Shown one piece after another: positions 39,095-54,603 of a DNA stretch of 64,000 bases. A program made the translations under genes and the position numbers. The notes beneath the pieces are model-generated. The model saw only the letters and a program-made list of their open reading frames with translations. It did not search any database and was not told the DNA's origin. The stretch covers positions 1 through 64,000 of the forward strand of contig NZ_JAKZLB010000002.1 in NCBI RefSeq assembly GCF_022808865.1, in the 5' to 3' direction. The stretch is from Geothrix oryzisoli (GTDB taxonomy: Bacteria; Acidobacteriota; Holophagae; Holophagales; Holophagaceae). Each line of letters starts with the position of its first letter. Within the stretch, counting starts at the first letter, position 1.

Positions 39095-39123
39095 TTGTGG
39101 ATCCGGGGAGGACTCCCCATACT
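39095..39123 (+). promoter_or_regulatory. probable ssrA promoter
   Basis: TTGTGG (39095-39100), exact 17-bp spacer, CATACT (39118-39123). It lies about 55 bp upstream of the mature 5' end of tmRNA, which fits a precursor trimmed by RNase P. Confidence 0.5.
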
Positions 39124-39179
39124 CAGGATCCGCTTCAACCGAACCTTCGAGGAGGGGAGGAAGAAGCCACTCGACCCTT

Positions 39180-39570
39180 GGGGGTGACCGGTTTCGACAG
39201 GTCGTGATCCAGGTGTTCGGTGCAGGCGGGGGTTGGACGGCTGGCCCCCTCATCAAGCCGCCCAAATCAAACTGCCAACGATAACTTCGAACTGGCTCTC
39301 GCTGCCTAGGGCAACCTAGGCTCCGAGCGAGTCCTCGGGATCTCTGGGTACCGAGCTCGTTAAACCTCCGAAAGGGTGGCTTCGGCCTGCCGGACGGAGG
39401 CACCAGATAGGCCGCCGCGACGCCCCCTGACAGCGGCCGAGATAAGGGGGCACACGTCCCGAGCGGCTCGTCCGTTCCCCGCCGGGAGGTTTCAAGAGCG
39501 GACCAAGCCTGTGGAAGAGCCGCCATCCGGCATGTCTTGGACGTGGGTTCGACTCCCACCACCTCCACCA
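39180..39570 (+). ncRNA. ssrA: transfer-messenger RNA (tmRNA)
   Basis: tmRNA rescues stalled ribosomes and tags the nascent chain for proteolysis. The 5' end GGGGGTG pairs with CACCTCC just before the 3' ACCA to form the alanine-acceptor stem. GACCGGTTTCGACAG at the 5' end is the conserved D-arm-like region, and GTGGGTTCGACTCCCAC is the T-arm near the 3' end. The tag reading frame at 39274-39309 encodes ANDNFELALAA then TAG. The last 14 bases are repeated 13.7 kb away, so the 3' end was rebuilt by the inserted element and the gene stays functional. Confidence 0.95.
39557..39570 (+). other. attL core (14-bp direct repeat)
   Basis: CACCACCTCCACCA, the end of the tmRNA T-arm and acceptor stem plus CCA. 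The same 14 bases occur at 53277-53290. This marks the left junction of the island. Confidence 0.8.
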
Positions 39571-39682
39571 GCACGTTTTCCGAGGGCATCCGAAGGCGTC
39601 CGATTCACCCAGCAATTTCAACGAATCGGCGCCATCGGGAGTCCGACCGGGTCCGAATGCATCCGTTGCGATCCGGGGGTAA

Positions 39683-39706
39683 CTGGGGGCAAGATTTGGG
39701 GCAACT
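39683..39706 (+). repeat. left arm-type integrase repeat
   Basis: The 24-bp block CTGGGGGCAAGATTTGGGGC+AACT contains repeats of a (T)GGGG(G)CAAC-type unit, and a further related unit (CCGGGGGTAACT) lies just before it. A near copy (about 21 of 24 bases) is at 53192-53215 by the other element end. Tyrosine integrases bind such arm sites flanking the core. Confidence 0.55.
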
Positions 39707-39733
39707 GGGGCCCCGCCCCAAGGAGTTGCCCCC

Positions 39734-40933
39734 ATGCCCCTTACTGATGCCGCCCTGCGCAAAGCCAAGGCCGGCGTGAAGCCTGTTCGGCTCCACGATG
39801 AGCGCGGCCTCTACCTGGAAGTCGCCCCGAGCGGGGGTAGGTGGTGGCGCCTGAAATACCGCTTCGACGGCAAGGAGAAGCGTCTCTCGCTGGGGGTCTA
39901 CCCCGACGTGGGGCTGAAGGAGGCCCGTGAGAGCCGGGACGAGGCGCGGAAGCTGCTGAGCCAGGGTGTGGACCCCGGGGAGCACCGGAAGGCCAAGAAG
40001 GCAGCCAAGGCGGACCGTGCAGCCAACAGCTTCGAGGTCGTGGCGAGGGAGTGGGTCAAAAAATTCGCTCCGACCAAGACAGAAAAATACTGGGATGGCG
40101 TCCTTCGGCGCTTCGTCCGCGACATTTTCCCCTGGATCGGGGATCGGCCGATCTCCGACATCTCCGCCCCCCAACTGCTCGAGGTGGTTCGCAGGATCGA
40201 GGCACGCGGGGCCCTGGAGACGGCCCATCGAGCCCTGGGGTCCTGCGGGCAGGTGTTCCGGTATGCGGTGGCCACGGGGCGGGCCGAACGCGACCCCTCA
40301 GCGGACCTCCGGGGAGCCATCCCCCCGGCCCAAGGAAAGCACATGGCGGCCACCACGGACCCGGAGCAGCTTGCGGGCTTTCTGCGGGCCATGGAGGGCT
40401 ACGAGGGCGGCCTCATCGTGCGCTGCGCCCTCCGCCTGGCCCCCCTCGTCTTCGTGCGTCCTGGGGAGCTTCGCCATGCCGAGTGGGCCGACATCGACCT
40501 CGTCGCAGCCGAGTGGCGCTACCTCGTCACCAAGACCCAGACGCCGCACATCGTGCCCCTCGCCACCCAGGCCGTGGCCATCCTGAAAGAGGTCCAGCCA
40601 CTCACCGGGAGAGGGCGATTCGTATTCCCAAGTGCGCGGAGCACCGCCCGCCCCATGAGCGACAACGCCATCCTGGCGGCCCTCCGGCGAATGGGCATCG
40701 GCAAGGAGGAGATGAGCGGCCACGGGTTCCGGGCCGTGGCTCGGACCCTCCTGGAAGAAAAGCTAAACTTCCGTGCCGACTTCATCGAGCATCAACTCGC
40801 CCATGCCGTGCGCGACCCCAACGGCCGGGCCTACAACCGCACGACCCACCTCGAGGAACGGCGCAAGATGATGCAGGCGTGGGCTGACTATCTAGACGCC
40901 CTTCGGGCGGGGGGCCCGGGTAATGGGGCTTAA
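39734..40933 (+). CDS. tyrosine recombinase integrase (P4-type, DUF4102 N-terminus)
   Basis: A protein of 399 residues. Its N-terminal arm-binding domain (LTDAALRKAKAGVKPVRLHDERGLYLEVAPSGGRWWRLKYRF...) is typical of prophage P4-like integrases; a SAM-like core-binding domain follows (residues 98-200). Catalytic residues are present: R247 (RPGELR), K267, H330-xx-R333 (HGFR), H357 and the nucleophile Y367. AGGAG lies before the ATG at 39734. It starts 164 bp from the attL core in ssrA, the usual arrangement, and should catalyse integration and excision of the island. Confidence 0.93.
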   Translation: MPLTDAALRKAKAGVKPVRLHDERGLYLEVAPSGGRWWRLKYRFDGKEKRLSLGVYPDVGLKEARESRDEARKLLSQGVDPGEHRKAKKAAKADRAANSFEVVAREWVKKFAPTKTEKYWDGVLRRFVRDIFPWIGDRPISDISAPQLLEVVRRIEARGALETAHRALGSCGQVFRYAVATGRAERDPSADLRGAIPPAQGKHMAATTDPEQLAGFLRAMEGYEGGLIVRCALRLAPLVFVRPGELRHAEWADIDLVAAEWRYLVTKTQTPHIVPLATQAVAILKEVQPLTGRGRFVFPSARSTARPMSDNAILAALRRMGIGKEEMSGHGFRAVARTLLEEKLNFRADFIEHQLAHAVRDPNGRAYNRTTHLEERRKMMQAWADYLDALRAGGPGNGA

Positions 40934-41079
40934 GCAGCCGGTCCCATACATCGGCATCCGAGCCAATGTTGCCGATTCATCCAGGTAAGCATCTTGCTTT
41001 TGGACGGCGGTCCGCCTCGTCGATCAACGATGATCGGCGGTTTTACGGCCGGTCGTGATGCGGTTGTGATACTTTTTTT

Positions 41080-41100
41080 CTCAAGTTCACCTAAATTGAG
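41080..41100. promoter_or_regulatory. dyad upstream of the protease pair
   Basis: CTCAAGTT-N5-AAATTGAG, arms matching at 7 of 8 bases. It follows an extended -10-like TGTGATACT (41066-41073... on the + strand) and precedes GGAGG and the ATG at 41115. It is a likely operator or promoter-proximal element for the two-gene unit; the regulator is unknown. Confidence 0.35.
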
Positions 41101-41114
41101 GTTCGGAGGCACCC

Positions 41115-41321
41115 ATGGCTGCAAGAAAGGCGGGCGCAACCCTCGACTTGGCTCACGTGAGCAAGGTGTTCAAGGACATGGCCAAATATTCGCCTTATGT
41201 CCCGGCGTACCAGGCACCCATCGATACTCCAGCACCCCCCTTACGCGATCCAAAGACGGGGGCGCTTCTTTCACGGTTTCGGTACTCCGACTCTTCTGCC
41301 TCCGTGTTTGAGGAGAAGTAA
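41115..41321 (+). CDS. small protein partnered with the SDH-type protease
   Basis: A protein of 68 residues, start ATG at 41115 with GGAGG 8 nt upstream. No known family. Residues 1-25 are basic and helical, while the second half is extended and Pro-rich (YVPAYQAPIDTPAPPLRDPKTGALLSRF). Its stop overlaps the start of the protease gene by one base (TAATG), so the two are translationally coupled and probably work together. It could be an adaptor, substrate or inhibitor of the protease. Base composition is AT-richer than the host chromosome. Confidence 0.6.
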   Translation: MAARKAGATLDLAHVSKVFKDMAKYSPYVPAYQAPIDTPAPPLRDPKTGALLSRFRYSDSSASVFEEK

Positions 41322-42268
41322 TGCCGAATTGGCATGATCTGAATGCCGAGATCCAGAAGATCCGGCAGATAGGCCAGATGCACCACATGACCGCCTTCGA
41401 TCAGGTTCGGAGGAACGCGTTAAAAGTGCTGCATGACCTAACCGGCAGAAACGTCATCGTCTACTACAGCGGTTGGCTCCAGAAAATGGACCTCCAGCGA
41501 AGTCATGGGCGTGATTTCAGCATCCATGATGGGGACAAAAATGGCTTCATGGCTGTCATCCATCGTTTAGATCGGTCTCGGGGACTCGACTTACTGATGC
41601 ACACTCCGGGGGGTGACTTGGCCGCCACGGAGTCACTAGTGGATTACCTTCACGCCAAATTCACAGATATTCGAGTTGTGGTCCCGCAAATTGCCATGTC
41701 CGCAGGGACCATGGTTGCGTGTGCCTCGAACCGCATCCTAATGGGAGATCAATCAAGCATCGGCCCCATTGACCCGCAAATATTTGGAATGCCCGCGCAC
41801 GGCATTCTGGAGGAGTTCGCTCAAGCTGGTCGAGAAATATCGAAGGACGCTTCAAGGATTCCGCTTTGGCAGCCCATCATCGCGAAGTACGACCCGACCT
41901 TGATCGGTGAATGCATGAAGGCGACCGTGATGAGTCAGGAGATGGTGGCTAACTGGCTCGAACAGAGAATGTTCCAGGGCCTGTCTACCCGGTCTGCAAA
42001 GGCCCGGGCAAAGAAGATCGTGCGAGAGTTAGGTGATCACGCCCTAACCAAATCACATGCTCGGCATATATCAAAGCAGAAGGCCACGGCTCTTGGACTG
42101 GTCGTGGAGTCACTTGAAGCCCCCGGCAATGAAGACCTCCAAGATGCGGTATTGACCGTCCATCACGCCTGCGTTCACACCCTGTCTTCAACGCCTGCCC
42201 TAAAAATCATCGAGAATCACGATGGTGTGGCATTCATTGAGCAGGCGATGGTACAGGCGCCTGGCTGA
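41321..42268 (+). CDS. SDH_sah-type ClpP-fold serine protease
   Basis: A protein of 315 residues. The central region LLMHTPGGDLAATESLVDYL (HTPGG 94-98), VVVPQIAMSAGTMVACASNRILMG (nucleophile S127) and SSIGPIDPQ (145-153) match the serine dehydrogenase proteinase family, relatives of SppA/ClpP. There is no signal peptide or convincing membrane helix, so it should be cytosolic. The C-terminal third is helical. It is coupled to the 68-residue protein upstream. Family members occur in mobile islands, but their role is not established; a defence or regulatory role is inference. Confidence 0.8.
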   Translation: MPNWHDLNAEIQKIRQIGQMHHMTAFDQVRRNALKVLHDLTGRNVIVYYSGWLQKMDLQRSHGRDFSIHDGDKNGFMAVIHRLDRSRGLDLLMHTPGGDLAATESLVDYLHAKFTDIRVVVPQIAMSAGTMVACASNRILMGDQSSIGPIDPQIFGMPAHGILEEFAQAGREISKDASRIPLWQPIIAKYDPTLIGECMKATVMSQEMVANWLEQRMFQGLSTRSAKARAKKIVRELGDHALTKSHARHISKQKATALGLVVESLEAPGNEDLQDAVLTVHHACVHTLSSTPALKIIENHDGVAFIEQAMVQAPG

Positions 42269-42274
42269 TTGCCA

Positions 42275-42940
42275 TCATTGATTCGGTTGGCTGAACTTCG
42301 CCCGCCAGTCGCCCAGACTGAGCCCGAGCAGGATGCCGCGCTGAAAGGAGGTCAGCCCAAGCCCGGAAGCCCCGAGGGGGAAGACCACCTTGTGGGGGTG
42401 GACCATCGGGTCCCACAGGAGTGACAACAGGGCCGGCAGGAGGCCGGCCGTGGCCATCCCCTCGGGGCAGAAGTAGAGCGTGCCACGGCCTTCCTGAAGT
42501 TGCTTCAGGAGCCTTGGGACCGTCACCTCGGCCGCCCATTGAAACTGGTGATCCCAGTCGAGCGGATCCGCAGGTGGCGCCACCGGGAGGAACTCGATCT
42601 GAGCGCCGTCGTGCCCAGTCGGGTCGCAGTTCCGCCATTCGGAGGGCAGGATCAACGACTCCCACCCGGACCAGACCAACGTCTCTCCCTCGGGCCCCCC
42701 CTTGCGCTCCGAATAGGGGCCCAGGCGATCAACCACCTGGTTCTCGCTGGCCAGTTGGAACACCATCTTGTTCTGGAGCCCGTGGAGCGCGTCCAGAATG
42801 CCCTTCTGCCAGCCATCCTGGTCCTCCCGCGGCGCCCGCCGGCGAGGGGTGGCCAGCAGCAGGGTGCCCGGAGTGTTCACCCAGGGAACGTTGATCCGAT
42901 GCAGGTGAAGAAGAGGGTGTGCTGGTCGAGGGGTGGGCAT
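42275..42940 (-). CDS. unknown island protein
   Basis: A 221-residue protein; the ATG at 42940 has AGGAG 6 nt upstream, and a longer start at 42958 is less supported. It is convergent with the protease gene (6-bp gap). The sequence mixes strands and helices: MVFQLASENQVVDRLG, LVWSGWESLILPSEWR, then VPRLLKQLQEGRGTLYFCPEGMATAGLLPALLSLL. The last stretch recalls a P-loop after a strand, but the phosphatase CX5R arginine is replaced by threonine. I do not recognise the family. Confidence 0.6.
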   Translation of the reverse strand: MPTPRPAHPLLHLHRINVPWVNTPGTLLLATPRRRAPREDQDGWQKGILDALHGLQNKMVFQLASENQVVDRLGPYSERKGGPEGETLVWSGWESLILPSEWRNCDPTGHDGAQIEFLPVAPPADPLDWDHQFQWAAEVTVPRLLKQLQEGRGTLYFCPEGMATAGLLPALLSLLWDPMVHPHKVVFPLGASGLGLTSFQRGILLGLSLGDWRAKFSQPNQ

Positions 42941-43133
42941 GGGAACTCCTGTCTTCACTTCCCGGTGAGCGACTGCGATTAAAGAACGGGAAATCCTCCG
43001 TAGTGGCTGGGGGTGGGACTCGCGTTGAATCGATCCGGGCCCGTTCTCTGGGACATTTAGCCCAGAATCAGTAATTACTGAAAGCGATATGACACTCGTT
43101 GTCTAAATGGGCCTAATCGCGGCCATTAGCGAT

Positions 43134-46100
43134 TCAGGCCCAGCCTTCCGACCTGACCCTGCCGATGAGCGCCTGCAGTTCGTTCGGGGCCTTGCAGACC
43201 TCGAACCGCCACTTCCCCAGGGCCCCCCACCGGTTCACGGCACGGACCCACCGCCGGGCGGCCTCGTGCTTGGCTTGGTCCTGGTCATCCTCCTGCCCCT
43301 TGATCTCCAGGACCAGGGTGCGCCCGGGCTCGATCTGGACCAGGAAGTCCGGCTGGTAGCTGTGCCCCTGACCTTCGTAGTCGTAGGGGATGTTGAACTC
43401 CAGGCGTTCGTTCTTGGCATAGCAGCGGAGCTTGCCCTGTTTGGCGGCAAGTTCGAGGTGGAAGGACGCGCTCTGCTCCCACTGCTTCGTGTCCAGGGCG
43501 ACCTGGTTGATGTGGCTGGCCTCGGTGGGTTGGCAGGGCTTGGTGGTCTTGAAGTCCACGCGAGCGGTGGTGCCCTTGGCTTGGTAGCGGTTGAGGATGG
43601 GCACCAGGGCCTCCTCCCCCTTGGCCTCGTCGGGTTCAATGGCCGTCAGGAAGCGGTCCGTCAACCGGGCCATATACCGGTCCAGGCCCAACTCGGCGGG
43701 GTGGCAGTCGTTCCACTCCACCTTGGTGGCGGTGTAGGCCTTCACGAACCGCAGGACCTGGGGGAACAGCTGCTGCCGACCTTGGGTGCGGGCGCTGAGC
43801 CGCTGGTCGCCCTTGCCCTCCAGGAGCCCCCACACGACCCGACGGGCCAGTTCGAACTCCAGAGTCTGCAGGTGGGTCGTCTCGTAGTAATGCTGGCGAT
43901 CCTGGGCAACGGTGGGGAACTGGCCGTAGCCGCTGGGGGTGCCCTCGGCGTAGCCGACCTGGGGTGCGACGAAGACCGCCGTGGGCTCCTCCATCGGCTC
44001 CAGACCGAGCGGCTCCATGCCGGCGACATTCGCCTTGATGACGTTGCGGCTGAGCGCGAAGGCGTAGCCCTCCACGTTGGGGAACTCGATCTCGAGGTCC
44101 TTCCGCTCCGGCAGCGCCTTCACGTGTTGCCTGGGTTTGTCCTCCGGCGCGGCCTTCTTCACCGGCCGCCCCTTGAAGGGGATGACCGAGAATGGCACCC
44201 CGTAGACATCCACGTACTCCTCGTGGAGCATGAGCCGCCCCCGCTCGTCCCGGTAGGGCTCGTAGTCCATACGCCGCAGGCCACGGCCAACGACCTGCTC
44301 GCAAAGCAACTGGCTGCCGAAGGCGCGGAGGCCGAGGATGTTGGTCACCGTGTTGGCGTCCCAGCCCTCGCTGAGCATCTGGACGCTCACGACGCAACGG
44401 ACGTGCTCGCCCGGCTCGCCTTTCACGCCCACGGTGGAGACGATCCGCCGCAGTTCCTCGGCAGCCTCCTTCCGGCCGCCCCCCGTGGAAGACTCCGCCT
44501 CGGCCAGGAGCTTCGAGTCGATGCGGATGGTGACCCGACGCGTTGGCGTGTTGGCGAAGGCGGCTTTCAATGCACTCGGGCCGTAGGCCACGCTGCGCTT
44601 CTTCTTGGCCCGCTTCGGCGCCTCCTCATCCTCGTCCCCGTCGACCTCCTTGAGGGCCGTCTCGCCGCTGATGCGCTCGAAGAAGAGTTGGGCGATGTCT
44701 GTGTTGTCGCACACCACGATCAGGACCGGCGGGACCTTCTCCTGGCCTGGCGTGGCAGCCTCGGTCAGCTTGAATCGTTCCTCCCACTGGTCGGCCAGGG
44801 TCTTCAGAGCCCCCTCGGCCTGGGTCCAGACCACGTCCGGCTTCGGCTTACCGCCCGACAGCTTCTGGCCCGGTTTCAGGCTCTCCCGGATCTGTTCCCA
44901 CAGCCGGAAGTATTTGGGGTCAGGCTTGCCGCTTTCATCGGTCTGCCCCGTGGAATCGGCAACAGGGAGTCGGGGGATTTTGGTGATCCCGCTCTCGATG
45001 GCGTCCACCAAGCCGAAGTCAGACACCAGCCAGGGGAAGGGCGATCCTTCCACATGCCCTGATCCCTTGAGGTAGAACGGGGTGGCCGACATATCCACGC
45101 AGAAGCGCACGCCCACGCCCTGGTTGAGCCGGTCGAGGCCCTGGATCCACTGGGTCGCCTCTTCCAGGTCCGCCTTCTCCTCGGCGCTGAGTGGTGTGCC
45201 CTCCGACACCGGGGCCGGGCGGTAGGCATGGTGGGCCTCATCGTTGAGCACCAGGATGGGCCCGCGGCCGTGCAGTTCGCCCAGGAATCGGCGGGCGAAG
45301 GTGTCAGGGTCCTCTTCCCCCTTGTTCACCACGCGGTAGGCCACGCCGTCCTCGACGTTCGCACTTTCCAATGCCAGCTGGTGCCAGTTCTCCACCTTGA
45401 CCCGGCCCTTCCGCATCTCCGGCATCAGGGCCTCGGGCACGATGTCGAACTTGCGGTAGTAGTTGTCGGCCCGATCAGGGCGCAGCACCTGCAGCCGATC
45501 CTTGATGGTCAGATTCGGGCAGGCCACGAACACAGCCCCGGGAAAGCGCTGGCTCTGGGGGTTCCGGGCCCGATTGCACAGCGTCCAGGCAATGAGCATC
45601 GCCATCACCACCGTTTTGCCACTCCCGGTCGCCATCTTGCAGCCATAGCGGCGCAGGGCGGCCAGAGCCGGGTCGGAGGGCCGGTCCAGGAGGGCCGGGG
45701 GGACGTTCATTAGGTCTTGGGCGAAGCGCGGCACCTCGCCCTGGAGCAGGGCCTGGAATTCCTCAAGGCGGAGCCATTCGTCCTTGATTGGGCGCCCCTG
45801 GGCATCCTGGGGGTGACGGACGCGGTGGCCCGCCTCCAGCACTTCGGTCAGGTAGATGACCGTCTCCACCGCCTCCCGCTGGCAGAAGAAGAGGCGCCGC
45901 ACCCGGTCCTCCCGGCTCCAGTGAAGTAGAAGCTGGCGCGTCACCGGGGTCACATGCGGATAGCCGCTCGCCCGCCAGTCGCGCACATTCCTGCGGAGCA
46001 TGTTCACCAGCGGGAGGTCGTCCTCATCTTCCTCGATGAATAGGCTGCGTTGGCGGCTGCCCGTGACGCTGCCCTGGTGCCAATAGCGGCTGGGGCGCCG

Positions 46101-46226
46101 GCCATCCTGCTGGATGTGCTGGTGGTGGTCCCGGTCGTAGTGCCAGTGGGTGTCCGGCTCGTCGTAGGGAGAGCAGAGAATGGGCTGAGCGACCGGCTGG
46201 ACAGGAATCGGGGCCTGGTCGGTCAT
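43134..46226 (-). CDS. Type III-like restriction endonuclease subunit (DEAD-box helicase-nuclease)
   Basis: A protein of 1030 residues. An N-terminal extension of about 190 residues precedes a superfamily 2 translocase: Walker A CKMATGSGKT (196-205), ACPNLTIKDR, DEAH box LNDEAHHAYR (329-332), FCVDMSATPFYL, and motif VI-like LCEQVVGRGLRRMDY. Near the C-terminus QPDFLVQIEPGRTLVLEIKG (about 950-970) fits a PD-(D/E)xK nuclease core. With the adjacent methyltransferase it should cleave unmodified DNA. Its start overlaps the methyltransferase stop by 4 bp. Confidence 0.88.
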   Translation of the reverse strand: MTDQAPIPVQPVAQPILCSPYDEPDTHWHYDRDHHQHIQQDGRRPSRYWHQGSVTGSRQRSLFIEEDEDDLPLVNMLRRNVRDWRASGYPHVTPVTRQLLLHWSREDRVRRLFFCQREAVETVIYLTEVLEAGHRVRHPQDAQGRPIKDEWLRLEEFQALLQGEVPRFAQDLMNVPPALLDRPSDPALAALRRYGCKMATGSGKTVVMAMLIAWTLCNRARNPQSQRFPGAVFVACPNLTIKDRLQVLRPDRADNYYRKFDIVPEALMPEMRKGRVKVENWHQLALESANVEDGVAYRVVNKGEEDPDTFARRFLGELHGRGPILVLNDEAHHAYRPAPVSEGTPLSAEEKADLEEATQWIQGLDRLNQGVGVRFCVDMSATPFYLKGSGHVEGSPFPWLVSDFGLVDAIESGITKIPRLPVADSTGQTDESGKPDPKYFRLWEQIRESLKPGQKLSGGKPKPDVVWTQAEGALKTLADQWEERFKLTEAATPGQEKVPPVLIVVCDNTDIAQLFFERISGETALKEVDGDEDEEAPKRAKKKRSVAYGPSALKAAFANTPTRRVTIRIDSKLLAEAESSTGGGRKEAAEELRRIVSTVGVKGEPGEHVRCVVSVQMLSEGWDANTVTNILGLRAFGSQLLCEQVVGRGLRRMDYEPYRDERGRLMLHEEYVDVYGVPFSVIPFKGRPVKKAAPEDKPRQHVKALPERKDLEIEFPNVEGYAFALSRNVIKANVAGMEPLGLEPMEEPTAVFVAPQVGYAEGTPSGYGQFPTVAQDRQHYYETTHLQTLEFELARRVVWGLLEGKGDQRLSARTQGRQQLFPQVLRFVKAYTATKVEWNDCHPAELGLDRYMARLTDRFLTAIEPDEAKGEEALVPILNRYQAKGTTARVDFKTTKPCQPTEASHINQVALDTKQWEQSASFHLELAAKQGKLRCYAKNERLEFNIPYDYEGQGHSYQPDFLVQIEPGRTLVLEIKGQEDDQDQAKHEAARRWVRAVNRWGALGKWRFEVCKAPNELQALIGRVRSEGWA

Positions 46227-49200
46227 GCCCGTTTCCCCTCGGCATCGAGGCTGTGGGTCGCCATCACCTCATTGCCGCGGAGGTCCACGACCTTCACCGC
46301 GCAACGGCGATACTTGCCGGCGGCGAAGGGAAGGCTCTCCGTGCCCGCGAACGCCTTGAAGCGTTCGGCGTCGGCGCTCTTGAGAGCCTTGGCCAGCTTC
46401 TCCCAGGCCGTCTTGTCGGGAAAGAACGCCTGGGAGATGCAAAAGGCGCGGCCGTCGTAGTCCTGGTCCACGAACCACGCTGCCACCTTGTCAGCCTTGG
46501 TATCCGTCAGGCTGTGGTCCACGGGGTTGTAGACGTCCACCCCCTCCATGTGCACTCGGAACTCTCCGCCCTTAAGGCGTTCGAGACGAGTGCGGGGCAT
46601 GCCCATGGCCGTGAACAACTGGGCCCCGGGCCCCTCCTTCAATAGCCCGGACATGGCCACGTCCGGCCGGATCAGCAGCAGGTGGGTGCGCACCTCCCCA
46701 CCTTCCTGGGCATGGGCCTGGATCGCGCCCTGGGCCACGCCATCGAAGCCGAACCCCGCGAACACCAGTTCCTGGAACCCCCGCTGATAGGCCAGCCGAA
46801 GCGCCTGAGCCACCTGGAACTCGGTCACGTTGCCGATGCGGGGGCCGATGCTCACCGCCACGCGTCGCTCCGGGTCGCCCCAGGCGCCCTGGCCGTGGAG
46901 GACGGCCTGCCCCGTTAGAGGTTCGAGCCGCGCGAAGTCCTGGTGCTGGTTGTCGAGGAAATCTACCCCCTGGCGGCGCAGCCACCCCAGCACCTGCTCC
47001 TGGAACGCCTCGGCGTTCTGGGGGGCCGTGCCGGGGTCGAAGACGGGCAGGTCACCCTCGGTGCCCTCGATGGGCGAATCGACCTCCAGGCTTTCGAGGG
47101 CGGGCAGGACGGACTCTACGGTGAAGGGGCCGCTGACCCGCGTGATGCCACGCACCGGGTTGGGCTGGTCGACCAGTTCCTCCTCGGCCACGTTAGCTGC
47201 GATGCAGGCGTTGACTTCGTCCATCTTCGCTCGCCACGCGGCGCGGTAGGTCGTCACGCCCTCACGCAGGGCTTGAGGCCAGTCCTCATCCGTGTCCAAG
47301 GGCACCTCCCAGGCGAACCAACCCACGAAATCCAAGTCGACGGTTGCACGCTTCTTGGCTTCGTCGCTGCGCTCCCTGCCGTCCGGTGGCAGCAGCCAGC
47401 GACGGCGGTCCGCATCTGTCACTGCGCGCTTGCCCTCACCCCGCTCCTTGGCCCGCAGCTTGGCCTTCAGGCTCGCGCGAAGTTCGGGAGTCACTCCCGC
47501 CAGAGCCGCGTTGCAGGCTGCCAGGGCGGCCTCCAAGAGGGGCTCATGCCGGGCAAAGATGGGGTCGAGATCGGCGTTTTTGGCGATGCGGCGCAGTGTC
47601 ACATGGGGCACGGTCCTGCAGTCGAGGGTGCGCGCCTCACCTGAGTTCGGCTCCTTCAGCCAGGCACCATCGGGATTCCGTGCATGGTCTTCGTCGGTGA
47701 TGGGGCGCAGGGCGTAGTAGTCGAACTTCGCCGTCATGAGCCGCTGCCGTGCCAGGGACAGAGCCACGCGGCTGGTGTCGCAGGTGATCCAGCGCCGCCC
47801 CCATTGTTCTGCCACATACGCCGTGGTGCCCGAGCCGCAGGTGGGATCCAGGACGAGGTCACCAGGATCTGTGGTCATGAGCAGGCAACGTTCAATAACC
47901 TTGGTTGCTGTTTGGACCACATACACTTTGTTGGTCGCACCGCCGACATCCGTCCAGGTAGGACCGATTGGGGTTACTGGGTAATCGTCAAAGTATTTTT
48001 TAAATCGAATTTGGGATTGAAGACGAACGATTCTGTCTGCTTTCGCTGCGCGCTCTAGGCCAGAGGTGTCTACCCCCCAATGGCGGTTCGCACCTGGGTG
48101 GAAAACTTGTCCCTGGAATGGAAAATCGACGGTCGTGGTCGTTCGGGATCCGTCTGAAGTTATAGGGTCTGGGGACCATCCATCTGAATCTTCGTCAGAG
48201 ACCCTCAAGCGATCGTTTTTCCGATCCACAAACAGTTGATAGAATTTAGCTTGTTGCTTATTTTTCGCATACCACAGAACAAAATCTGAATTCTGAACTA
48301 GAAACTCTCCAGTCTGTGTTCCAGTTTTTTGAACTTGGATTTGTGAGACAAAGTTTTCGATCCCGAATACCTCATCCATCACTAACCGCAAGCGGTGCAG
48401 GTTCTCGTCGCTTATCTGCACGAAGATGCTGCCGGAGTCTGCCAAGAGTTCCTTGGCGATCATCAGGCGGTCGCGCAAATAGGCCAGGTAGGAGTGCACG
48501 CCCAACGTCCAGGTGTCGCGATAGGCACGCACCATCTCAGGCTCACGCGTCAGATCTTGGTCCCTCTCTGTTTCACGGTGGGCGTTGTCTCCAACCTCAA
48601 CCTGGAAATTTCTAGAGAACTTGATGCCGTAGGGCGGGTCCAGGTAGATCGTCTGCACTTGTCCAGCCAGGTTCTCGCGCCGGGCCAGGGAGGCCATCAC
48701 CTGCAGGCTGTCCCCCAGGACCATGCGGTTGGCCCAATCCACCGGGTAACGGTAGAACTGCAGTTCCTTGGCGGGGTCCAGTTCGGGGTCGGCGAATAGC
48801 CCGCGCTCAAGGTCCTGGCGCTGCACCGCCCGCAGGATGGCCTGGGTGCTCACCCGCTCGTGGATGTGTAGGGCCACCGGGTCCACCTCGAACCGCTCGG
48901 CCTCGCGCTTGCCGGCCCACTCGATCCAGGGGGCCTGGACGCTGAGCAGGGCCTTCAACTCCTCCGCTTCCGAAGCCGACAGTTGGCGTTCGCTGACCAG
49001 GGCCGCCAGTTCAGTCGCGCGATCGGCCTGACCGGTGCCATCAAAGCGGAGCGTGGGCGGCCGATGGGGGTTGTAAGCGTAGGCCAACCGCGGCGGCTCC
49101 GCGGCGCGACCCTCGGCGGCCAGTCCAGCCGGTGGGTTGTTTAGGCGCGTGGCCCGGTGCAGGTAGTTGGCGCTCTCCTCGGTGGACAACTCCAACTCAG

Positions 49201-49315
49201 GGGCCGTCGCCACCGGTTCCGCTGCAATCTTCTTCCCGCTGCCCTTGGGCCGCCCCCGCTTGGGCTTGGCTTCCGTCACGGACGAGGGCTCCAGAGTGAA
49301 TTCCGGGTCGGACAT
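46223..49315 (-). CDS. Type III-like DNA methyltransferase subunit (beta-class, N6-adenine type)
   Basis: A protein of 1030 residues. An AT-hook-like RGRPKGSGKK lies at 20-29; motif IV DPPY at 226-229 (TIYLDPPYG) comes first; SAM-binding motif I LDPTCGSGTT at 489-498 comes later. This is the beta-class order with the target-recognition region between. That region (about 47.9-48.4 kb) is strikingly AT-richer than the rest of the gene. A large C-terminal part follows. The start at 49315 is chosen because an operator dyad and intergenic sequence lie directly upstream. It is expected to modify the target of the coupled nuclease. Confidence 0.88.
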   Translation of the reverse strand: MSDPEFTLEPSSVTEAKPKRGRPKGSGKKIAAEPVATAPELELSTEESANYLHRATRLNNPPAGLAAEGRAAEPPRLAYAYNPHRPPTLRFDGTGQADRATELAALVSERQLSASEAEELKALLSVQAPWIEWAGKREAERFEVDPVALHIHERVSTQAILRAVQRQDLERGLFADPELDPAKELQFYRYPVDWANRMVLGDSLQVMASLARRENLAGQVQTIYLDPPYGIKFSRNFQVEVGDNAHRETERDQDLTREPEMVRAYRDTWTLGVHSYLAYLRDRLMIAKELLADSGSIFVQISDENLHRLRLVMDEVFGIENFVSQIQVQKTGTQTGEFLVQNSDFVLWYAKNKQQAKFYQLFVDRKNDRLRVSDEDSDGWSPDPITSDGSRTTTTVDFPFQGQVFHPGANRHWGVDTSGLERAAKADRIVRLQSQIRFKKYFDDYPVTPIGPTWTDVGGATNKVYVVQTATKVIERCLLMTTDPGDLVLDPTCGSGTTAYVAEQWGRRWITCDTSRVALSLARQRLMTAKFDYYALRPITDEDHARNPDGAWLKEPNSGEARTLDCRTVPHVTLRRIAKNADLDPIFARHEPLLEAALAACNAALAGVTPELRASLKAKLRAKERGEGKRAVTDADRRRWLLPPDGRERSDEAKKRATVDLDFVGWFAWEVPLDTDEDWPQALREGVTTYRAAWRAKMDEVNACIAANVAEEELVDQPNPVRGITRVSGPFTVESVLPALESLEVDSPIEGTEGDLPVFDPGTAPQNAEAFQEQVLGWLRRQGVDFLDNQHQDFARLEPLTGQAVLHGQGAWGDPERRVAVSIGPRIGNVTEFQVAQALRLAYQRGFQELVFAGFGFDGVAQGAIQAHAQEGGEVRTHLLLIRPDVAMSGLLKEGPGAQLFTAMGMPRTRLERLKGGEFRVHMEGVDVYNPVDHSLTDTKADKVAAWFVDQDYDGRAFCISQAFFPDKTAWEKLAKALKSADAERFKAFAGTESLPFAAGKYRRCAVKVVDLRGNEVMATHSLDAEGKRA

Positions 49316-49323
49316 GAACGCTC

Positions 49324-49344
49324 CAACACAATTAGTTTGTGTTG
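49324..49344. promoter_or_regulatory. operator dyad next to the methyltransferase start
   Basis: CAACACAA-N5-TTGTGTTG, perfect 8-bp arms, only 8 bp before the methyltransferase ATG. A near-identical dyad (49461-49481) lies by the divergent XRE gene. A binding site for that regulator, overlapping the ribosome-site region, is the natural reading. Confidence 0.65.
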
Positions 49345-49460
49345 GACAGTTTGCCGGAGAACTCTGCCCAGGCGAAGAAGTCTGGCCCTGTAGAATCAGG
49401 GAATGGCCGCGCGCCGCCTTCCCCGCTCCTGTTCCCGGAGCGAGGGGGCCACCCTGTCGC

Positions 49461-49481
49461 CAACACAAATTGTTTGTGTCG
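49461..49481. promoter_or_regulatory. operator dyad next to the XRE regulator start
   Basis: CAACACAA-N5-TTGTGTCG, seven of eight arm pairs conserved, 13 bp before the ATG at 49495. The same left arm and spacing as the dyad at 49324-49344 point to autoregulation plus control of the R-M operon by one protein. Confidence 0.65.
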
Positions 49482-49494
49482 AACAGGGATTGCC

Positions 49495-49944
49495 ATGAAG
49501 GGTGCACCTCGCCCCCCGCGCCGGCGTGCGCCGAAGCAGCCCCGGGCCCTCAGCGAGCGGCTCTGGCTCGCCCGGGAACGAATGGGCCTGACCCAACGCG
49601 CTCTCGGAGCCCGGATCGGGGTCGGGCAGGCGGCGATCTCGGCCTGGGAAAAGGGCCAGTCTGTTCCCCGGGAGAGCACCTGGCCGCTCCTCGTGAGGTC
49701 CCTCGGAGTCAGCCAACATGCCCTTGAAACAGGCGAGGGCTTTGAAGTAACCCTCCCGGTGGACCTGGTCGCAGAAGCCTCGGAGGCCCCGATGGGCCTG
49801 CCGTCCATGCCGCCGCACGCGGAGGTGCTCCTCGTAGCCACCGATGGCCTTGCCCTGGAGAGCACAACCGCCACCGCAGCTTGCCGCTCGCTCCGGCAGG
49901 CCGTGAAGGAAGGGCGCCCGGTCTGGGTGGTGGTGGGCCACTGA
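49495..49944 (+). CDS. XRE-family regulator of the R-M operon
   Basis: A protein of 149 residues. The helix-turn-helix is clear at about 20-75 (LSERLWLARERMGLTQRALGARIGVGQAAISAWEKGQSVPRESTWPLLVRSLGV). The C-terminal half is not an obvious peptidase domain (EVLLVATDGLALESTTATAACRSLRQAVKEGRPVWVVVGH). It is divergent from the methyltransferase gene, with matched dyads at both starts, which makes it a controller-type regulator. A longer in-frame start upstream would swallow the operator and is rejected. Confidence 0.85.
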   Translation: MKGAPRPPRRRAPKQPRALSERLWLARERMGLTQRALGARIGVGQAAISAWEKGQSVPRESTWPLLVRSLGVSQHALETGEGFEVTLPVDLVAEASEAPMGLPSMPPHAEVLLVATDGLALESTTATAACRSLRQAVKEGRPVWVVVGH

Positions 49945-50067
49945 TCCCGGACGCGGAAGCATCGACTCCGAGGTGAAGTTATCTCAAAATGGCCCCTCAC
50001 CCCGTGGAGGAGTCCTTGGTCTCGGGACCAGCCCTGGCCCCCCCCACCTCGTTGGTCGAGGGGCTCG

Positions 50068-51150
50068 ATGGCTGATCTCCGCCGCAACGAGCAGGACCGT
50101 CTCGAGTCCATCAGGAACCTCCTGGGGCGGGCGATCCGAGAATCCCGAGGGGCCGATAGACGGCCCCTACAGTCGGCGGATTTAGCGCGAGTCGGGACGG
50201 CAATGAGGCAAGTGGTGGCCATCATCGACGCCTACCGAGAAGGTCTCTTCGAGCAGGCCCACTCGGTCCGGGTGAAGTGCATCACCTCCGACTTCGGCTC
50301 CCTGCTCGAGATCCTTTCGGCCCTGGGCGACCGGGAACTGACCGTGGGGGGCCAGGAAAAGATTCGGACCCGAATCAAGAGTTGGACCCACGAGGCCCGT
50401 CAATGGGTGGCCCGTCTGCCCATGCTGGCGGCTGCGTCCCGCCTTCCCGCCAGGGAAGGAAGGTCGGGAGAGGCTCGTTGTGCCCGCCTCAAGGCGTGCT
50501 GGTTGGAGGCGGATGGCGCCTGCTTCGCGCCGCCTCCACAAAGGCCACGGATCCTCCTGAATGGCGTGCCTGACCACTTCCAGCCTGCACCCCTCGGGCT
50601 CAACCCGCTGCTTGAGGTGGACCCGTTGGATAGGAAGCGACCGATGACGGATACTCCGGCATGGACGCCCAAGCCTCGGCCGTTGCTCGAACTCCTGGGC
50701 TTCGCGGAGGAGACCCTGCTCTTGGAGGCAGGCGGGGCCGACCGTGGGGGCCGCACCACCTTCAATGAACGTCGGAGAAATTGCTCCCTCCGAGATGCCT
50801 TCGCGTTCAGCTGTGTGGTGGCCTTCGAGCGAACCCTCGGACCCAGGTCCGCGCGCCAGAGCCAGACCTTCCGACGCGAGATCAAACCCACAATATTCGA
50901 GCGGTTCATCGCCCTGGTCCAGGAGGCGGCTGTCGGCGGGGAGGTCCCGAGGGAGTTGGCCCTTGGGCCGGATCCCGTCCGGCGGGCCATCAAGGTCCAA
51001 CGGGCGTGGCAGAGGCTCTTCCAGGCAGCGGGCGTCGCGGACGGTTCAGCCTTCGGCTCACTCCCGGAGGAAGCCAGGTTGGCTGCACAGCGGCGCTTGA
51101 AGCCCCAAATCCAGGCCCGCTTGAGGCAACCAGTGGTGCCCTGGGTCTAG
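50068..51150 (+). CDS. unknown island protein, 360 residues
   Basis: No family recognised. The first 120 residues are helical (NEQDRLESIRNLLGRAIRES..., VGTAMRQVVAIIDAYREGLFEQAHSVRVKCI...). A few cysteines follow (CARLKACWLEADGACF). The C-terminal part is helical and Arg-rich (FERFIALVQEAA..., KVQRAWQRLFQAAG, EEARLAAQRRLKPQIQARLRQ). Codon-position GC pattern and the intergenic spacing support a real gene. It is transcribed in the direction of the AlpA/Rep genes and lies 123 bp after the XRE gene. Confidence 0.55.
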   Translation: MADLRRNEQDRLESIRNLLGRAIRESRGADRRPLQSADLARVGTAMRQVVAIIDAYREGLFEQAHSVRVKCITSDFGSLLEILSALGDRELTVGGQEKIRTRIKSWTHEARQWVARLPMLAAASRLPAREGRSGEARCARLKACWLEADGACFAPPPQRPRILLNGVPDHFQPAPLGLNPLLEVDPLDRKRPMTDTPAWTPKPRPLLELLGFAEETLLLEAGGADRGGRTTFNERRRNCSLRDAFAFSCVVAFERTLGPRSARQSQTFRREIKPTIFERFIALVQEAAVGGEVPRELALGPDPVRRAIKVQRAWQRLFQAAGVADGSAFGSLPEEARLAAQRRLKPQIQARLRQPVVPWV

Positions 51151-51292
51151 GCGACCCTGGCGGCTAGAACCTCGATGGACTGACCCCCGGCGAATCGCTG
51201 GAAGTGGAGGTTGGTCGAAATTCTGCAGGAACGGATCGACCGAGGCTTTGACATCAGACGGCCTGGGATGCCGCCGGACGCCAGGAGATGAC

Positions 51293-51616
51293 ATGACCCC
51301 GACCATGACGAGCTGCGAACCTGCATCTGAGGCTGCGTCGGACTCCTTGAGAGCCTGCACGCTTCTGCGCCTTCCTGAGGTTCTCCGGGCCCGGGGACGA
51401 TCCCGCAGCACGCATTACTCGGACATTGATCGGGGTCTTTTCACGCGCGCCGTGATTCTCGGCGCCAATTGCGTGGCTTGGCCTGAGTCAGAGGTCATCG
51501 CCTTGAACCGGGCACGCATTTCCGGGATGCCCGACCAGGAGATCCGCGCCCTTGTTGCGCGACTGGAGGCCATGCGGAAGCGGGCCAGGGCCGTGGAGCA
51601 GGACCAGGAGACCTGA
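51293..51616 (+). CDS. AlpA-family small regulator
   Basis: A protein of 107 residues. The MerR-like winged HTH of AlpA proteins is visible: TLLRLPEVLRARGRSRSTHYSDIDRGLFTRAVILGANCVAWPESEVIALNRARI (RLPEV...RSxxY...G.F..V.LG...V.WxxxEV). AlpA proteins control excision or replication genes of P4-like prophages, satellites and integrative elements. I chose the ATG at 51293 (GGAG upstream); 51248 and 51305 are alternatives. It lies directly before the rep gene. Confidence 0.8.
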   Translation: MTPTMTSCEPASEAASDSLRACTLLRLPEVLRARGRSRSTHYSDIDRGLFTRAVILGANCVAWPESEVIALNRARISGMPDQEIRALVARLEAMRKRARAVEQDQET

Positions 51617-51712
51617 GTCGGTCCGGTTGGTCGAAGGGCACGAGGGAGGGATGAGAGGGCTGTTCGGCTAGGCGCTGCCCTGGCTGGCCTTTGACAGCGC
51701 CTGGGGGAGACG

Positions 51713-52522
51713 ATGCACCATCTTGATAATAGAGCCAGTTCGGACCCGCGAGCCGAGCGGCACAGGGCCGCCCTGGTGCTGGCGGATCGGCTTGAGGAGA
51801 TCGGTGGCTTCACCCGGCAGGTCAAGGCGCTCCGTTGCTGCGGAGTCCTCCGCGCCGATGCTGCGGGGGGCCTGCGCGATTATCCCTGTAACCTGCGCTT
51901 CTGCCCGGTATGCCAGCCGAAATGGCGGCGTCGAATGTTCCTCATGTGGGGCGCCAAGGTCGAAGCCCTCCGCAGGCCCGAGGGCGAGATCATGTCGGTG
52001 ACTTTGACCTGTTCAGGCGGGGACGAGGCCCTGGCAGCCCGGAAGGCCGAACTGCGTGGATGGTTATCTCTGCTGTTCCGCAGGCACGCCTGGAAAGCGG
52101 CGGCCGGGCACGTCCGCAGGGTCGGCGTGTTGATGGCGACGGAGGTCGGACCGATGGGTGAGGGGTGCCCCTTGCCCCACGCGCACCTCCTCCTCGTCGG
52201 TCCATCTCCCTGCGAGGTCGCTGCGGCCGCCCATTGGCTCGTGGAGGCCTGGTTGGACCTCGTCCCAGGGGCGAGCCCCCAAGGGCAGGATAGTTCTCCC
52301 TGCAGGCGGCCTGGTGGCGCCGGAAGGTGGCTCAACTACATCCTCAAGGGGGACACCCTTGACCCTTCATGGGATGACACCCGGCTCGAGGCTAGCGCCC
52401 AGGCCCTGCTGGATGGGAGTCATCGGTTGCGCGTCCTGGGGATCCTGCGGGGCCTGAACGTCCCCGCCTCCGCACGCAGACGGGGAAAGATTCGACTTGC
52501 AAATGAATTTCGGAGAAGGTGA
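51713..52522 (+). CDS. rolling-circle replication initiator (HUH Rep, Rep_1-like)
   Basis: A protein of 269 residues. The Rep order is visible: the zinc-like knuckle CNLRFCPVCQPKW (59-71), motif 1 SVTLT (95-99), metal-binding HUH-like PHAHLLL (H156, H158) and motif 3 WLNYILKGDT with catalytic Y209 and K212 plus D215. These are the parts of rolling-circle plasmid initiators that nick the double-strand origin. It implies that the excised island can replicate as a circle. The following small gene starts 4 bp after this stop. Confidence 0.75.
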   Translation: MHHLDNRASSDPRAERHRAALVLADRLEEIGGFTRQVKALRCCGVLRADAAGGLRDYPCNLRFCPVCQPKWRRRMFLMWGAKVEALRRPEGEIMSVTLTCSGGDEALAARKAELRGWLSLLFRRHAWKAAAGHVRRVGVLMATEVGPMGEGCPLPHAHLLLVGPSPCEVAAAAHWLVEAWLDLVPGASPQGQDSSPCRRPGGAGRWLNYILKGDTLDPSWDDTRLEASAQALLDGSHRLRVLGILRGLNVPASARRRGKIRLANEFRRR

Positions 52523-52526
52523 GCAG

Positions 52527-53165
52527 ATGGGCGGAGTCGGAAGCGGGCTGTTGAGGCACCTCGATCGACGTCCACTTACCACGGACCTCCTGCCGCTCGA
52601 CGTCAGAGCCTTGGCTCACCTGGTCGACTTCCGAATCTCGTGCGACGCGACCTGCACCTGGACGGTGCAAGGCAAGGTCGTGGGTTCGGCAGTCATGAAA
52701 GTCGGAGCCGGTGTGCTGGTGCTCAGCTACCAGTTCGTTAGGTCAGAAAATGAAAGGTCGAAGGTGACCGCCTCGGTTCCGCTCGTGTGGTCGCGATGCA
52801 CGTTGGGCGGCGAGCGCCCGTGGTTCCTGTGCCCCGCGGTGGGGTGCGGGCGGCGTGTCGCCATCCTCTACTGCGGGGCCAACCTTCTCTGCCGACGATG
52901 TCTAGGACTAGCCTACCCCAGCCAGCGCGAAGCCGCGCCCGCACGGGCCCATCGGAGGGCTACCCGGATTCGCCAACGCATAGAGGGGCGGGGCGGCAAC
53001 GTCGGCGGCGCCATTCCAAAGAAGCCGAAGGGCATGCACCGCGCGACCTTCTACCGGCTCCTGGTCGAGCATCACCGCCGGATGACCCTATACTTCACCG
53101 GTGCAATCAAACACCTCGAGGTGCTGTCGAGGCGGATCGAGTCGATGGAAGGGCGGCTGAATTGA
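52527..53165 (+). CDS. Cys-rich mobile-element protein (zinc-ribbon-like)
   Basis: A protein of 212 residues starting MGGVGSG, the typical start of a conserved hypothetical family on integrated elements; an ATG at 52497 would overlap rep. The centre has WFLCPAVGCGRRVAILYCGANLLCRRCLGLAYPSQ, four or more cysteines placed like a zinc ribbon, followed by a basic segment (RAHRRATRIRQRIEGRGG). The C-terminus is helical. Function unknown; DNA binding in replication or mobilisation is a guess. It is the last gene before attR. Confidence 0.7.
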   Translation: MGGVGSGLLRHLDRRPLTTDLLPLDVRALAHLVDFRISCDATCTWTVQGKVVGSAVMKVGAGVLVLSYQFVRSENERSKVTASVPLVWSRCTLGGERPWFLCPAVGCGRRVAILYCGANLLCRRCLGLAYPSQREAAPARAHRRATRIRQRIEGRGGNVGGAIPKKPKGMHRATFYRLLVEHHRRMTLYFTGAIKHLEVLSRRIESMEGRLN

Positions 53166-53191
53166 ATCCTCCTGCCCCCACACCGTAAATC

Positions 53192-53215
53192 CTGGGGGCA
53201 ACATTGGGGGCAACT
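53192..53215 (+). repeat. right arm-type integrase repeat
   Basis: CTGGGGGCAACATTGGGGGC+AACT, a near copy of the block at 39683-39706, both in the same orientation relative to the window. It lies 62-85 bp inside attR. Confidence 0.55.
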
Positions 53216-53276
53216 CTGACCACCTTGTTGCACCTAATGCTGTAATCAGAAATCCTTAGTCGCACGATTTGGCGGA

Positions 53277-53290
53277 CACCACCTCCACCA
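53277..53290 (+). other. attR core (displaced native tmRNA 3' end)
   Basis: CACCACCTCCACCA, identical to the last 14 bases of tmRNA. Directly continuous with the native ssrA terminator, so this is the chromosomal side of the crossover. Confidence 0.8.
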
Positions 53291-53328
53291 AAGACAAGCC
53301 CCCGCCCGCGGGGGCTTGTCTTTGGTGG
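53285..53328 (+). terminator. displaced ssrA terminator
   Basis: A perfect 21-bp stem with a 2-nt loop; the left arm begins with the CCACCA of the tmRNA end and continues AAGACAAGCCCCCGC, and the right arm mirrors it. Before integration this hairpin would immediately follow tmRNA. It now ends transcripts leaving the island. Confidence 0.75.
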
Positions 53329-53640
53329 TATTGCCGCTGCGGGCAGGCAGGCGCCCGGAGGGCAGGACTTGATGTCCTGCCCGGAGGATCGGCGCCGTGC
53401 CCAGCAGCGACACGCCAAGCGCCTCTCATTCGGGGCCTCATTTTGTTGTGGTAAAAGGCGAGACTCGAAATCGCTGACATGCTGGCAGGTGGCCGCAGCC
53501 GGAGGCAATCCGGTGGACTGCCGGAGGCGTTAAGCGGCGTGCCGGCCTTTCGCGCGGCCGGAGCGTCACCCGAAGGGTGATGCGGAGGGACTCCCATCAC
53601 CGAGGGTGCCGCCGAACCGCATCCGCGAGGCTTCTGGTAT
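53329..53640. other. hairpin-rich intergenic region, no gene seen
   Basis: About 310 bp without a convincing gene. It contains several inverted repeats: GGGCAGGAC-N5-GTCCTGCCC (53360-53382), CCGGCC-N8-GGCCGG (53542-53561) and TCACCC-N3-GGGTGA (53566-53580). This may be an unrecognised structured RNA, a scar of older insertions at this site, or simple GC-rich sequence. Confidence 0.4.
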
Positions 53641-54603
53641 TCACTCCCCCGCCCCCAGCCCCTCCGCCTGCTCCCGCAGCCGCGCCACGTCCTTGGTCGG
53701 CGCACTCCCGAAGTACCGCCCGTATTCCCGGGCGAACTGGGAGGGGCTCTGGTAGCCCACGCGGCGGCCGGCGGTACCGGCGTCGAGGCGAGTGAGCAGC
53801 ATGAGGCGCCGCGCCTCCTGGAGGCGGATGGCCTTCTGGTACTGCAGGGGGCTCATGGCGGTGACGGCCTTGAAGTGCTGGTGGAAGGAGGAGGGGCTCA
53901 TGTGGACCAGGGTGGCCAGGCGCTCCACGTCCAGGGGCTGGTCGAAGTGGGAGCGGACCCAGGACACGGCCTTGGCGACCCGGTGGAGCTGGCTCTCCTC
54001 CTGGCCGATCAAGGCCACCCGCGGGCCCAGCGGGCTCCGCAGGAGCCGGATGAGGATCTCGTCGAGGACGAGGGGAGCCAGCAGTTCCGCCTCGTCGGGT
54101 CGGGAGGCCAGCTCCAGGAGCCGCACCACCGCGTTGATCACCGGCGCGTCCAGCTGATCCACGCAGATGGCGCGGCCCTCGCCCCGGCGGGGGAGGCCGA
54201 GGGGGTAGACCCTGGCCGTCAGGTCGGCGATCCGCGCCGGATCCAGGTCGATCCGGACGCCGAGGTAGGGCGCCTCCAGGCTGGCCTGGGTGACCTGGGC
54301 GGACACGGGCACATCCACGGAATAGACCAGCACCCGCGAGGCGTCGTACTCGTAGAGCTCCTGCCCCAGCATCACCCGCTTCGCGCCCTGGGCCACCAGG
54401 CAGAGCGCCGGCCGCTGCACGGCGTGGTGGAAATCCTTGTGGGCCCGGGAGGCCCGGGAGGCGTGGACGCCCGGAAGCCGCAGCTCGAAAGTGCCGTCAT
54501 AGGGAGCGTGGGCCAGCAGCAGATCCGCGAGCCGGGCCAGGTCCGGCCGAAGGGGCTCCGATTGGGAACCTTGGGGAAGGGGTGGCGTCGAGGGGCGGGC
54601 CAT
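53641..54603 (-). CDS. AraC-family transcriptional regulator
   Basis: A protein of 320 residues. The N-terminal AraC_N cupin-like ligand domain ([47 protein letters not shown]) is joined to a C-terminal double HTH ([45 protein letters not shown]..., [17 protein letters not shown]). This subtype commonly controls aldehyde or quinone detoxification oxidoreductases. It is the last gene of the minus-strand cluster with a decarboxylase-like protein, aldo-keto reductase and alcohol dehydrogenase, its likely targets. Confidence 0.9.

Follow-up and report, generated by a model that had tools for sequence, protein, structure and literature searches.

We analyzed a stretch of 64,000 nucleotides from Geothrix oryzisoli (contig NZ_JAKZLB010000002.1 of assembly GCF_022808865.1), hereafter called the window, in which a restriction-modification (R-M) operon lies divergent from the gene of an XRE regulator. 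The features of the locus are the following:

43134 to 46226, minus strand: Res, a BPTD_3080 family restriction endonuclease, 1030 aa
46223 to 49315, minus strand: Mod, a Type III-like N6_N4 adenine methyltransferase, 1030 aa
49322 to 49346, no strand: D1, an operator-like dyad, TCCAACACAA-N5-TTGTGTTGGA, immediately 5' of the Mod start codon
49391 to 49396, plus strand: TAGAAT, a -10-like box for the XRE/leader transcript, 12 nt before the leader ATG
49403 to 49498, plus strand: leader ORF of 31 codons, MAARRLPRSCSRSEGATLSPTQIVCVEQGLP, whose stop TGA overlaps the XRE start (ATGA)
49424 to 49442, plus strand: RNA hairpin CGCTCC-N7-GGAGCG in the leader ORF, +22 to +40, with covariation and a consensus fold
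49461 to 49481, no strand: D2, the second dyad, with one mismatch, inside the leader ORF
49495 to 49944, plus strand: XRE regulator, 149 aa, Pfam HTH_3

The regulator belongs to the XRE / HTH_3 group, scoring 43.5 bits against HTH_3 (Pfam gathering score 23). Its helix-turn-helix (HTH) covers approximately residues 19-80, with the recognition helix placed by structure at residues 43-53 (VGQAAISAWEK), and a PDB search gave the P22 c2 and 434 repressors as nearest relatives of this part. The C-terminal part had no credible match, only the HTH part matching credibly in the PDB, and Pfam at E 0.001 returned HTH families only, with no WYL domain. Mod (N6_N4_Mtase 109 bits; PADLOC MTase_III 476 bits) adjoins the helicase-nuclease Res, whose gene overlaps the Mod stop by 4 bp, and the two form a Type III-like R-M gene pair. 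Res scored 930 bits with NF046055 (cut-off 800) and 27.9 bits with ResIII (cut-off 22.5); considering that PADLOC REase_III gave only 37 bits and that the family is named BPTD_3080, Res appears to be an outlying Type III member. Possible start codons farther upstream in the reading frames of XRE and Mod were rejected, as homologues start where annotated here. A search of Rfam with 48900-50200 returned a single match, far below its gathering score.

The preliminary description had proposed D1 and D2 as a matched operator pair controlling the R-M operon and its regulator, and its measurements were reproduced. The D1 core (49324-49344, CAACACAA-N5-TTGTGTTG, 0 mismatches) is separated by 8 bp from the start codon of Mod, which on the minus strand has its A at 49315. 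D2, with its one mismatch, is separated by 13 bp from the XRE ATG at 49495, and the two centers (49334 and 49471) are 137 bp apart. On extension, the perfect arms of D1 reach 10 bp (49322-49346), and a GGAG ribosome-binding-like sequence forms the end of its Mod-proximal arm. Chance cannot account for the two dyads: when the window was shuffled 100 times, matches at up to 3 mismatches averaged 0.02 per shuffle, and no shuffle had two. The rest of the 3.23-Mb genome contains one further place within 3 mismatches, and the backward pattern has one place. This further site (C2:715702-715722, L003; 2 mismatches) may be a distant target or a chance match.

We then looked at the conservation of the pair. 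Relatives of the regulator were found by profile search in 20 of the 47 genomes of the genus, and relatives of Mod in four of the 47, as five copies. Four of these copies have a divergent XRE beside Mod, namely the window, L038, L041 and L039, the last three with XRE identities to the window of 86%, 57% and 57%. Beside these homologous R-M operons D1 and D2 were kept at 4/4 of the XRE+Mod loci found. The fifth Mod copy (G396, 39-42% identity) has no XRE in the fetched stretch, and its genome has no dyad at up to 2 mismatches. In the alignment of the four spacers, the window and L041 are identical at 0.76 of D1, 0.79 of the hairpin and 0.90 of D2, compared with 0.43 of the stretch from D1 to the leader and 0.35 of that from the hairpin to D2; D1, hairpin and D2 are therefore conserved islands of the Mod-XRE spacer. 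Two of the Mod copies (L039:5057-8206 and L040:2326-5643) contain an internal TAG, possibly reflecting decaying systems or assembly errors.

The dyad was also confined to these loci. AACACAA-N5-TTGTGTT with up to 1 mismatch occurs at 8 sites in G000, G182 and G401 (a genome 72% complete), all at XRE+Mod loci, and G000 has two additional sites with 2 mismatches; G087 and G396, which have no such XRE-Mod pair, have zero sites. The backward control pattern gave 2, 3, 0, 1 and 0 places in G000, G182, G401, G087 and G396, respectively. Among 396 genomes of the phylum the exact dyad was present in 2, both times at the XRE-Mod locus, and a separate scan of genome contigs recovered 3 loci, which are L038, L041 and L039 (JAUXSE01; JAJZQW01). 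It is very unlikely that another host regulator binds the dyads and that XRE is merely adjacent, considering that the sites were found only where this XRE is present, that G396, whose Mod copy has no XRE beside it, lacks the dyad as well and that, as shown below, the dyad type tracks the type of recognition helix while the partner gene varies.

We also fetched the flanks of the genus XRE relatives and of some family- and phylum-level loci, and ran an unsupervised search for paired dyads on the upstream regions of 32 XRE genes, each region being 320 bp at most, with 40 shuffles each. The 32 regions exclude L119, L120, L124 and L126, from other genera of the same family, as well as the HTH-only partial matches G401:C83, G087:C1:2538583 and G150:C21; seven did not begin at the start codon (L105, L108, L111, L112, L113, L114 and L116), L111, L114 and L116 being later corrected. 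Paired dyads exceeded all 40 shuffles in 9/32 regions (window, L038, L041, L039, L095, L097, L117, L118 and L125). The observed pair was equaled by 1/40 shuffles in L099 and 6/40 in L115, and by at least 14/40 in the other 21 regions, which is within chance.

Results showed that the dyads of these loci are of several types: ACACAA-N5-TTGTGT in the window group, AAATCAA-N5-TTGATTT, degenerate at D2, in L095, L097 and L099, GACAACTnAGTTGTC in L117 and L118, and TACTTGATTCGAGTA in L125. The divergent partner is PD-(D/E)XK in L095, HARE-HTH/Mrr_cat in L097 and an N6_N4 Type III Mod in L117, L118 and L125; in L099, a locus cut by the contig end, it is HARE-HTH only. From locus to locus the half-sites vary in concert, which is the behavior predicted for a cognate repressor. 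The claim of an operator pair for XRE and the R-M operon is supported in that the pair is kept at 4/4 loci, that at up to 1 mismatch it is restricted to them in their three genomes, and that other restriction loci have matching pairs of different sequence. Six XRE paralogues (L098, L101, L104, L107, L109 and L121) are divergent from long Ser/Thr protein kinases, and these six have neither dyad pair nor leader ORF.

The dyads might also be read as RNA hairpins in two 5' regions, controlling translation, instead of DNA operators. Both precede start codons, D1 contains the GGAG of Mod and, when the predicted RNA of the leader is folded, D2 forms a hairpin. However, the four loci of the window group have ACACAA in 15/16 half-sites with no compensatory pair change, and D1 and D2, which belong to different transcripts, shift to the same new sequence between subfamilies, making this reading very unlikely. 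D1 and D2 are very likely the operator pair of the adjacent XRE.

Between the dyads lies the leader ORF. An ATG ORF of 28-33 codons with a stop overlapping the XRE start by 4 nt was found in 13/32 regions. As a control we took 262 further genes from the same sequences, each encoding 100 aa or more; such an ORF at 80-101 nt upstream was present in 2/262, and in 0/91 of those with a divergent upstream neighbor. The distance from leader ATG to XRE start varies by locus (92, 98, 83 or 95 nt). Of 18 hairpin-bearing leaders, 16 have the overlapping frame; the leader ORF of L096 stops early. In L105 (6636-7193) the hairpin is kept, but leader ORF and XRE share one continuous reading frame, giving an N-terminal extension with no overlap. 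The first reading of the element between the dyads, a plain RNA leader, was given up on the ORF overlap.

At 15/18 loci a TANNNT motif begins at position -12 or -13 from the leader ATG (other offsets, at most 3 each), which corresponds to the -10 geometry of a transcript starting at the leader AUG itself. The 5' end implied by the -10-like box would be the AUG of the leader ORF, not that of XRE. A consensus promoter scan, which needs a -35 box too, found nothing, no -35 box being apparent, and none of the promoter boxes keeps a constant spacing to D1 among the loci.

We asked where palindromes fall with respect to the leader ATG. Across 15 loci palindromicity peaked at offset 68 (z 7.0), corresponding to D2, and at offset 30 (z 6.3), corresponding to the hairpin, the next value being 2.5. 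Within +45 to +80 the best palindrome was exactly at offset 68 in 8/15 loci and the palindrome there was not the single best in 7/15. In the window locus the D2 center is at offset 68 from the leader ATG, as it is in 11/11 dyad loci in the coordinates of the unsupervised search, while the distance from D2 to the XRE start codon varies across loci from 15 to 42 bp. The proposed placement directly against both start codons is corrected for D2, which keeps its distance to the leader ATG and predicted transcript start instead; D1 overlies the region where Mod translation starts.

The hairpin itself pairs in 93.3% of cells over 15 loci, compared with 27-56% for slid partners, and 10 cells and 3/6 pairs are altered on both sides. 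In 500 shuffles, the cell count was reached by 0 and the pair count by 58. We do not claim a functional leader peptide, because the peptide is poorly conserved outside the hairpin and D2.

From 15 loci we built a covariance model covering leader nucleotides 1-45 and searched the 47 genomes with it. At E up to 0.05 there were 21 matches, spread over 16 genomes. An XRE-family gene follows directly after 17 of the matches; the other 4, with E 0.013-0.030, lie elsewhere. Fourteen of the 17 XRE-linked matches were training loci and three were held out: L111 (E 5e-4), L114 (0.001) and L116 (0.037, no better than the unlinked matches). In all three the leader ORF ends over the XRE start (ATGA, GTGA and ATGA, at +110, +110 and +92), and there is a palindrome at offset 68, which ranks first in L111 and L114 and ties for first place in L116. 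The divergent neighbors of L111 and L114 are Mrr_cat nucleases, and these two loci have weak partner dyads upstream, with 12 and 14 letters out of 19. In L116 the predicted ACAAC-N3-GTTGT was not found, the D2-like site there being of GACAGC type, and there is no clear upstream partner dyad; L100 and L103 also have a D2-like site with no clear D1.

In total, the leader is present at 16 loci in 13 genomes, and 12/16 have a restriction or nuclease gene as divergent neighbor. In the remaining four the neighbor is a response regulator (L115), a protein with no Pfam match (L100) or neither a restriction nor a nuclease gene (L103 and L116). As the tree shows that the loci are related, they do not count as 16 independent cases. 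An MmeI-type restriction-methylation gene (L103:8977-12348) lies 1.8 kb downstream of the L103 XRE, which has leader ORF and D2.

These loci also bear on the looping that the preliminary description had thought possible, in which XRE bound at D1 and D2 would hold the DNA between them in a loop on which joint repression would depend. There are indeed 11 loci with two matched sites 125-190 bp apart. Their 9 distinct spacings, however, leave 0.5, 4.5, 7.0, 9.5, 6.5, 1.0, 3.0, 9.5 and 2.0 modulo 10.5 (resultant length 0.17); having no common helical phase argues against phased looping, and so do the D2-like sites of L103 and L116 with no clear D1. We consider loop-dependent repression unlikely.

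We compared the third helix of the HTH with the dyads. QQT[IV]SLWE (L115-L118) goes with D2 ACA[AG]C, TNQ[KR] (L100, L111, L114 and L125) with the TAC/TAA types, KATVSAWER with TCAA and GQAA[IV]SAWEK with ACACAA, so that similar helices accompany similar D2 sites even where the partner genes differ. The distance between D2 sites correlated with that between helices 3 (r 0.68), and equally with that of the rest of the HTH (0.68; partial 0.33). The leader flanks correlated with helix 3 at 0.46, and D2 with helix 3 at 0.62 when the flanks were held constant. Shared descent could also be the source of this correlation.

Given that the pair is kept in relatives with a mini-gene and an RNA hairpin between the sites, the regulator very probably represses both genes. 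We propose, with a probability of roughly two in three, that a dedicated XRE acts at D1 to block Mod-Res and at D2 to stall the transcription of its own gene, its translation being coupled to the leader ORF. According to this model, built from sequence comparison, XRE would be a dedicated local repressor with D1 and D2 as its two operators. From D1, which lies against the ribosome-binding site and start codon of Mod, it would switch the Mod-Res operon off; from D2, about 60-80 bp past its own predicted transcription start and within the leader ORF, it would limit the amount of XRE mRNA, an elongation roadblock being the simplest way. The leader ORF would be read from a 5'-terminal AUG, through the conserved hairpin, to its end over the XRE start codon, and because of this end XRE translation may be coupled to it and kept low. 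On entry into a new cell Mod-Res would be made first; XRE would then accumulate until both sides are held at a set level.

An XRE that activates first and represses later, like the controllers of Type II systems, would fit the solved C.BclI, C.Esp1396I and C.AhdI found among the HTH relatives, and an activated promoter would fit a -10-like box with no evident -35. On the contrary, no dyad lies near the -35 upstream of the predicted XRE promoter, D2 is single and downstream of that promoter, and the closest HTH relatives are the phage repressors P22 c2 and 434; an activator-repressor appears improbable. Moreover, the partner here is a Type III-like Mod-Res rather than a Type II system, and no C-box is embedded in the regulator's own promoter, D2 being at offset 68 downstream given the predicted start.

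The repressor model of D1 and D2 has parallels in known systems. In the available part of its description, C.Kpn2I is a Type II R-M controller, XRE-like and divergent from the methyltransferase gene that it represses, whose own site downstream of its promoter acts as an elongation roadblock (PMC6237814). Judged by the predicted start, the own site here would also be inside the transcribed region. C.Kpn2I differs in having a single binding region, located within the C gene's coding part, for both sides, whereas here there are two separate dyads, with the own site in a leader ORF; the part available mentions neither leader ORF nor hairpin (PMC6237814). C.Esp1396I has operators before both the C gene and the methyltransferase gene, but it is Type II and, in the portion of the paper at hand, its C-box is embedded in its own promoter (PMC4824078), whereas here the own site is downstream of the predicted start. 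The same portion describes leaderless transcripts for Type II C genes (PMC4824078). BrxR, as presented in the accessible sections of its paper, is an autorepressor found with diverse defense systems. One inverted repeat separates the -10 of its gene from the start codon, and another precedes the effector operon; BrxR is a WYL-domain protein of another family, and these sections describe no leader ORF or hairpin (PMC9122601). The phage repressors P22 c2 and 434 share the HTH fold, are the closest solved sequences and use dyad operators; here, unlike in these, the C-terminal part has no credible match, the gene is linked to restriction genes and there are two sites, one of them in a leader ORF.

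In this way a leader-ORF cassette takes the place of start-codon repression or looping as the proposed mechanism, and it would be a new form of R-M controller regulation. The transcriptional controllers in the restriction literature covered, as far as the available texts go, are Type II; Type IIP control and C proteins are treated in one review (PMC12707154) and antisense control of EcoRI and Eco29kI in another (PMC3874152), both available in part. Our searches, which most subscription papers were beyond, found no literature on BPTD_3080 and none joining Type III restriction, a transcriptional regulator, XRE and autoregulation. A search for leader ORF, coupling and R-M gave an unrelated review only, and for Type III mod with a regulator the matches listed were mostly reviews of phase variation and methylation.

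Within one bacterial family, one regulator family with a fixed leader architecture is found beside Type III-like operons, Mrr-type nucleases and PD-(D/E)XK nucleases. Its operators vary in step with the regulator, providing a natural set for testing how defense genes are held and released, and the cognate operator of a new family member could be predicted from position alone. A further and doubtful reading is that Geothrix and relatives carry a portable defense-control cassette with a leaderless, hairpin-bearing leader ORF, which has the operator of the regulator at an exact offset and whose ribosomes would decide whether RNA polymerase passes the bound repressor. If this were true, loss of host translation, as in a phage takeover, would stop repressor synthesis and free the restriction genes, and operator and recognition helix would co-change across restriction systems with the leader geometry fixed.

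Finally, we looked at the surroundings of the locus. No relatives of the XRE were found in the plasmid collection at E 1e-8 or in IMG/VR, and a phage search returned two records of one Erwinia phage repressor, with 33% identity over the HTH part. No island-end repeat of at least 18 nt was found in 39100-54500, save one 76% match within genes. In the window, 50068-51147 encodes a 360-aa protein with no match in Pfam, NCBIfam or PADLOC; it is absent from two of the three other fetched XRE-Mod stretches and has a 75% identical copy beside the XRE in L038. Approximately 10 kb to the left of the R-M locus, 39180-40933 holds a tmRNA gene directly followed by a phage-type integrase, and downstream of these are the R-M genes and an AlpA-like and a weak Rep_1-like protein (51248-52519), an arrangement that resembles a genomic island inserted at ssrA.
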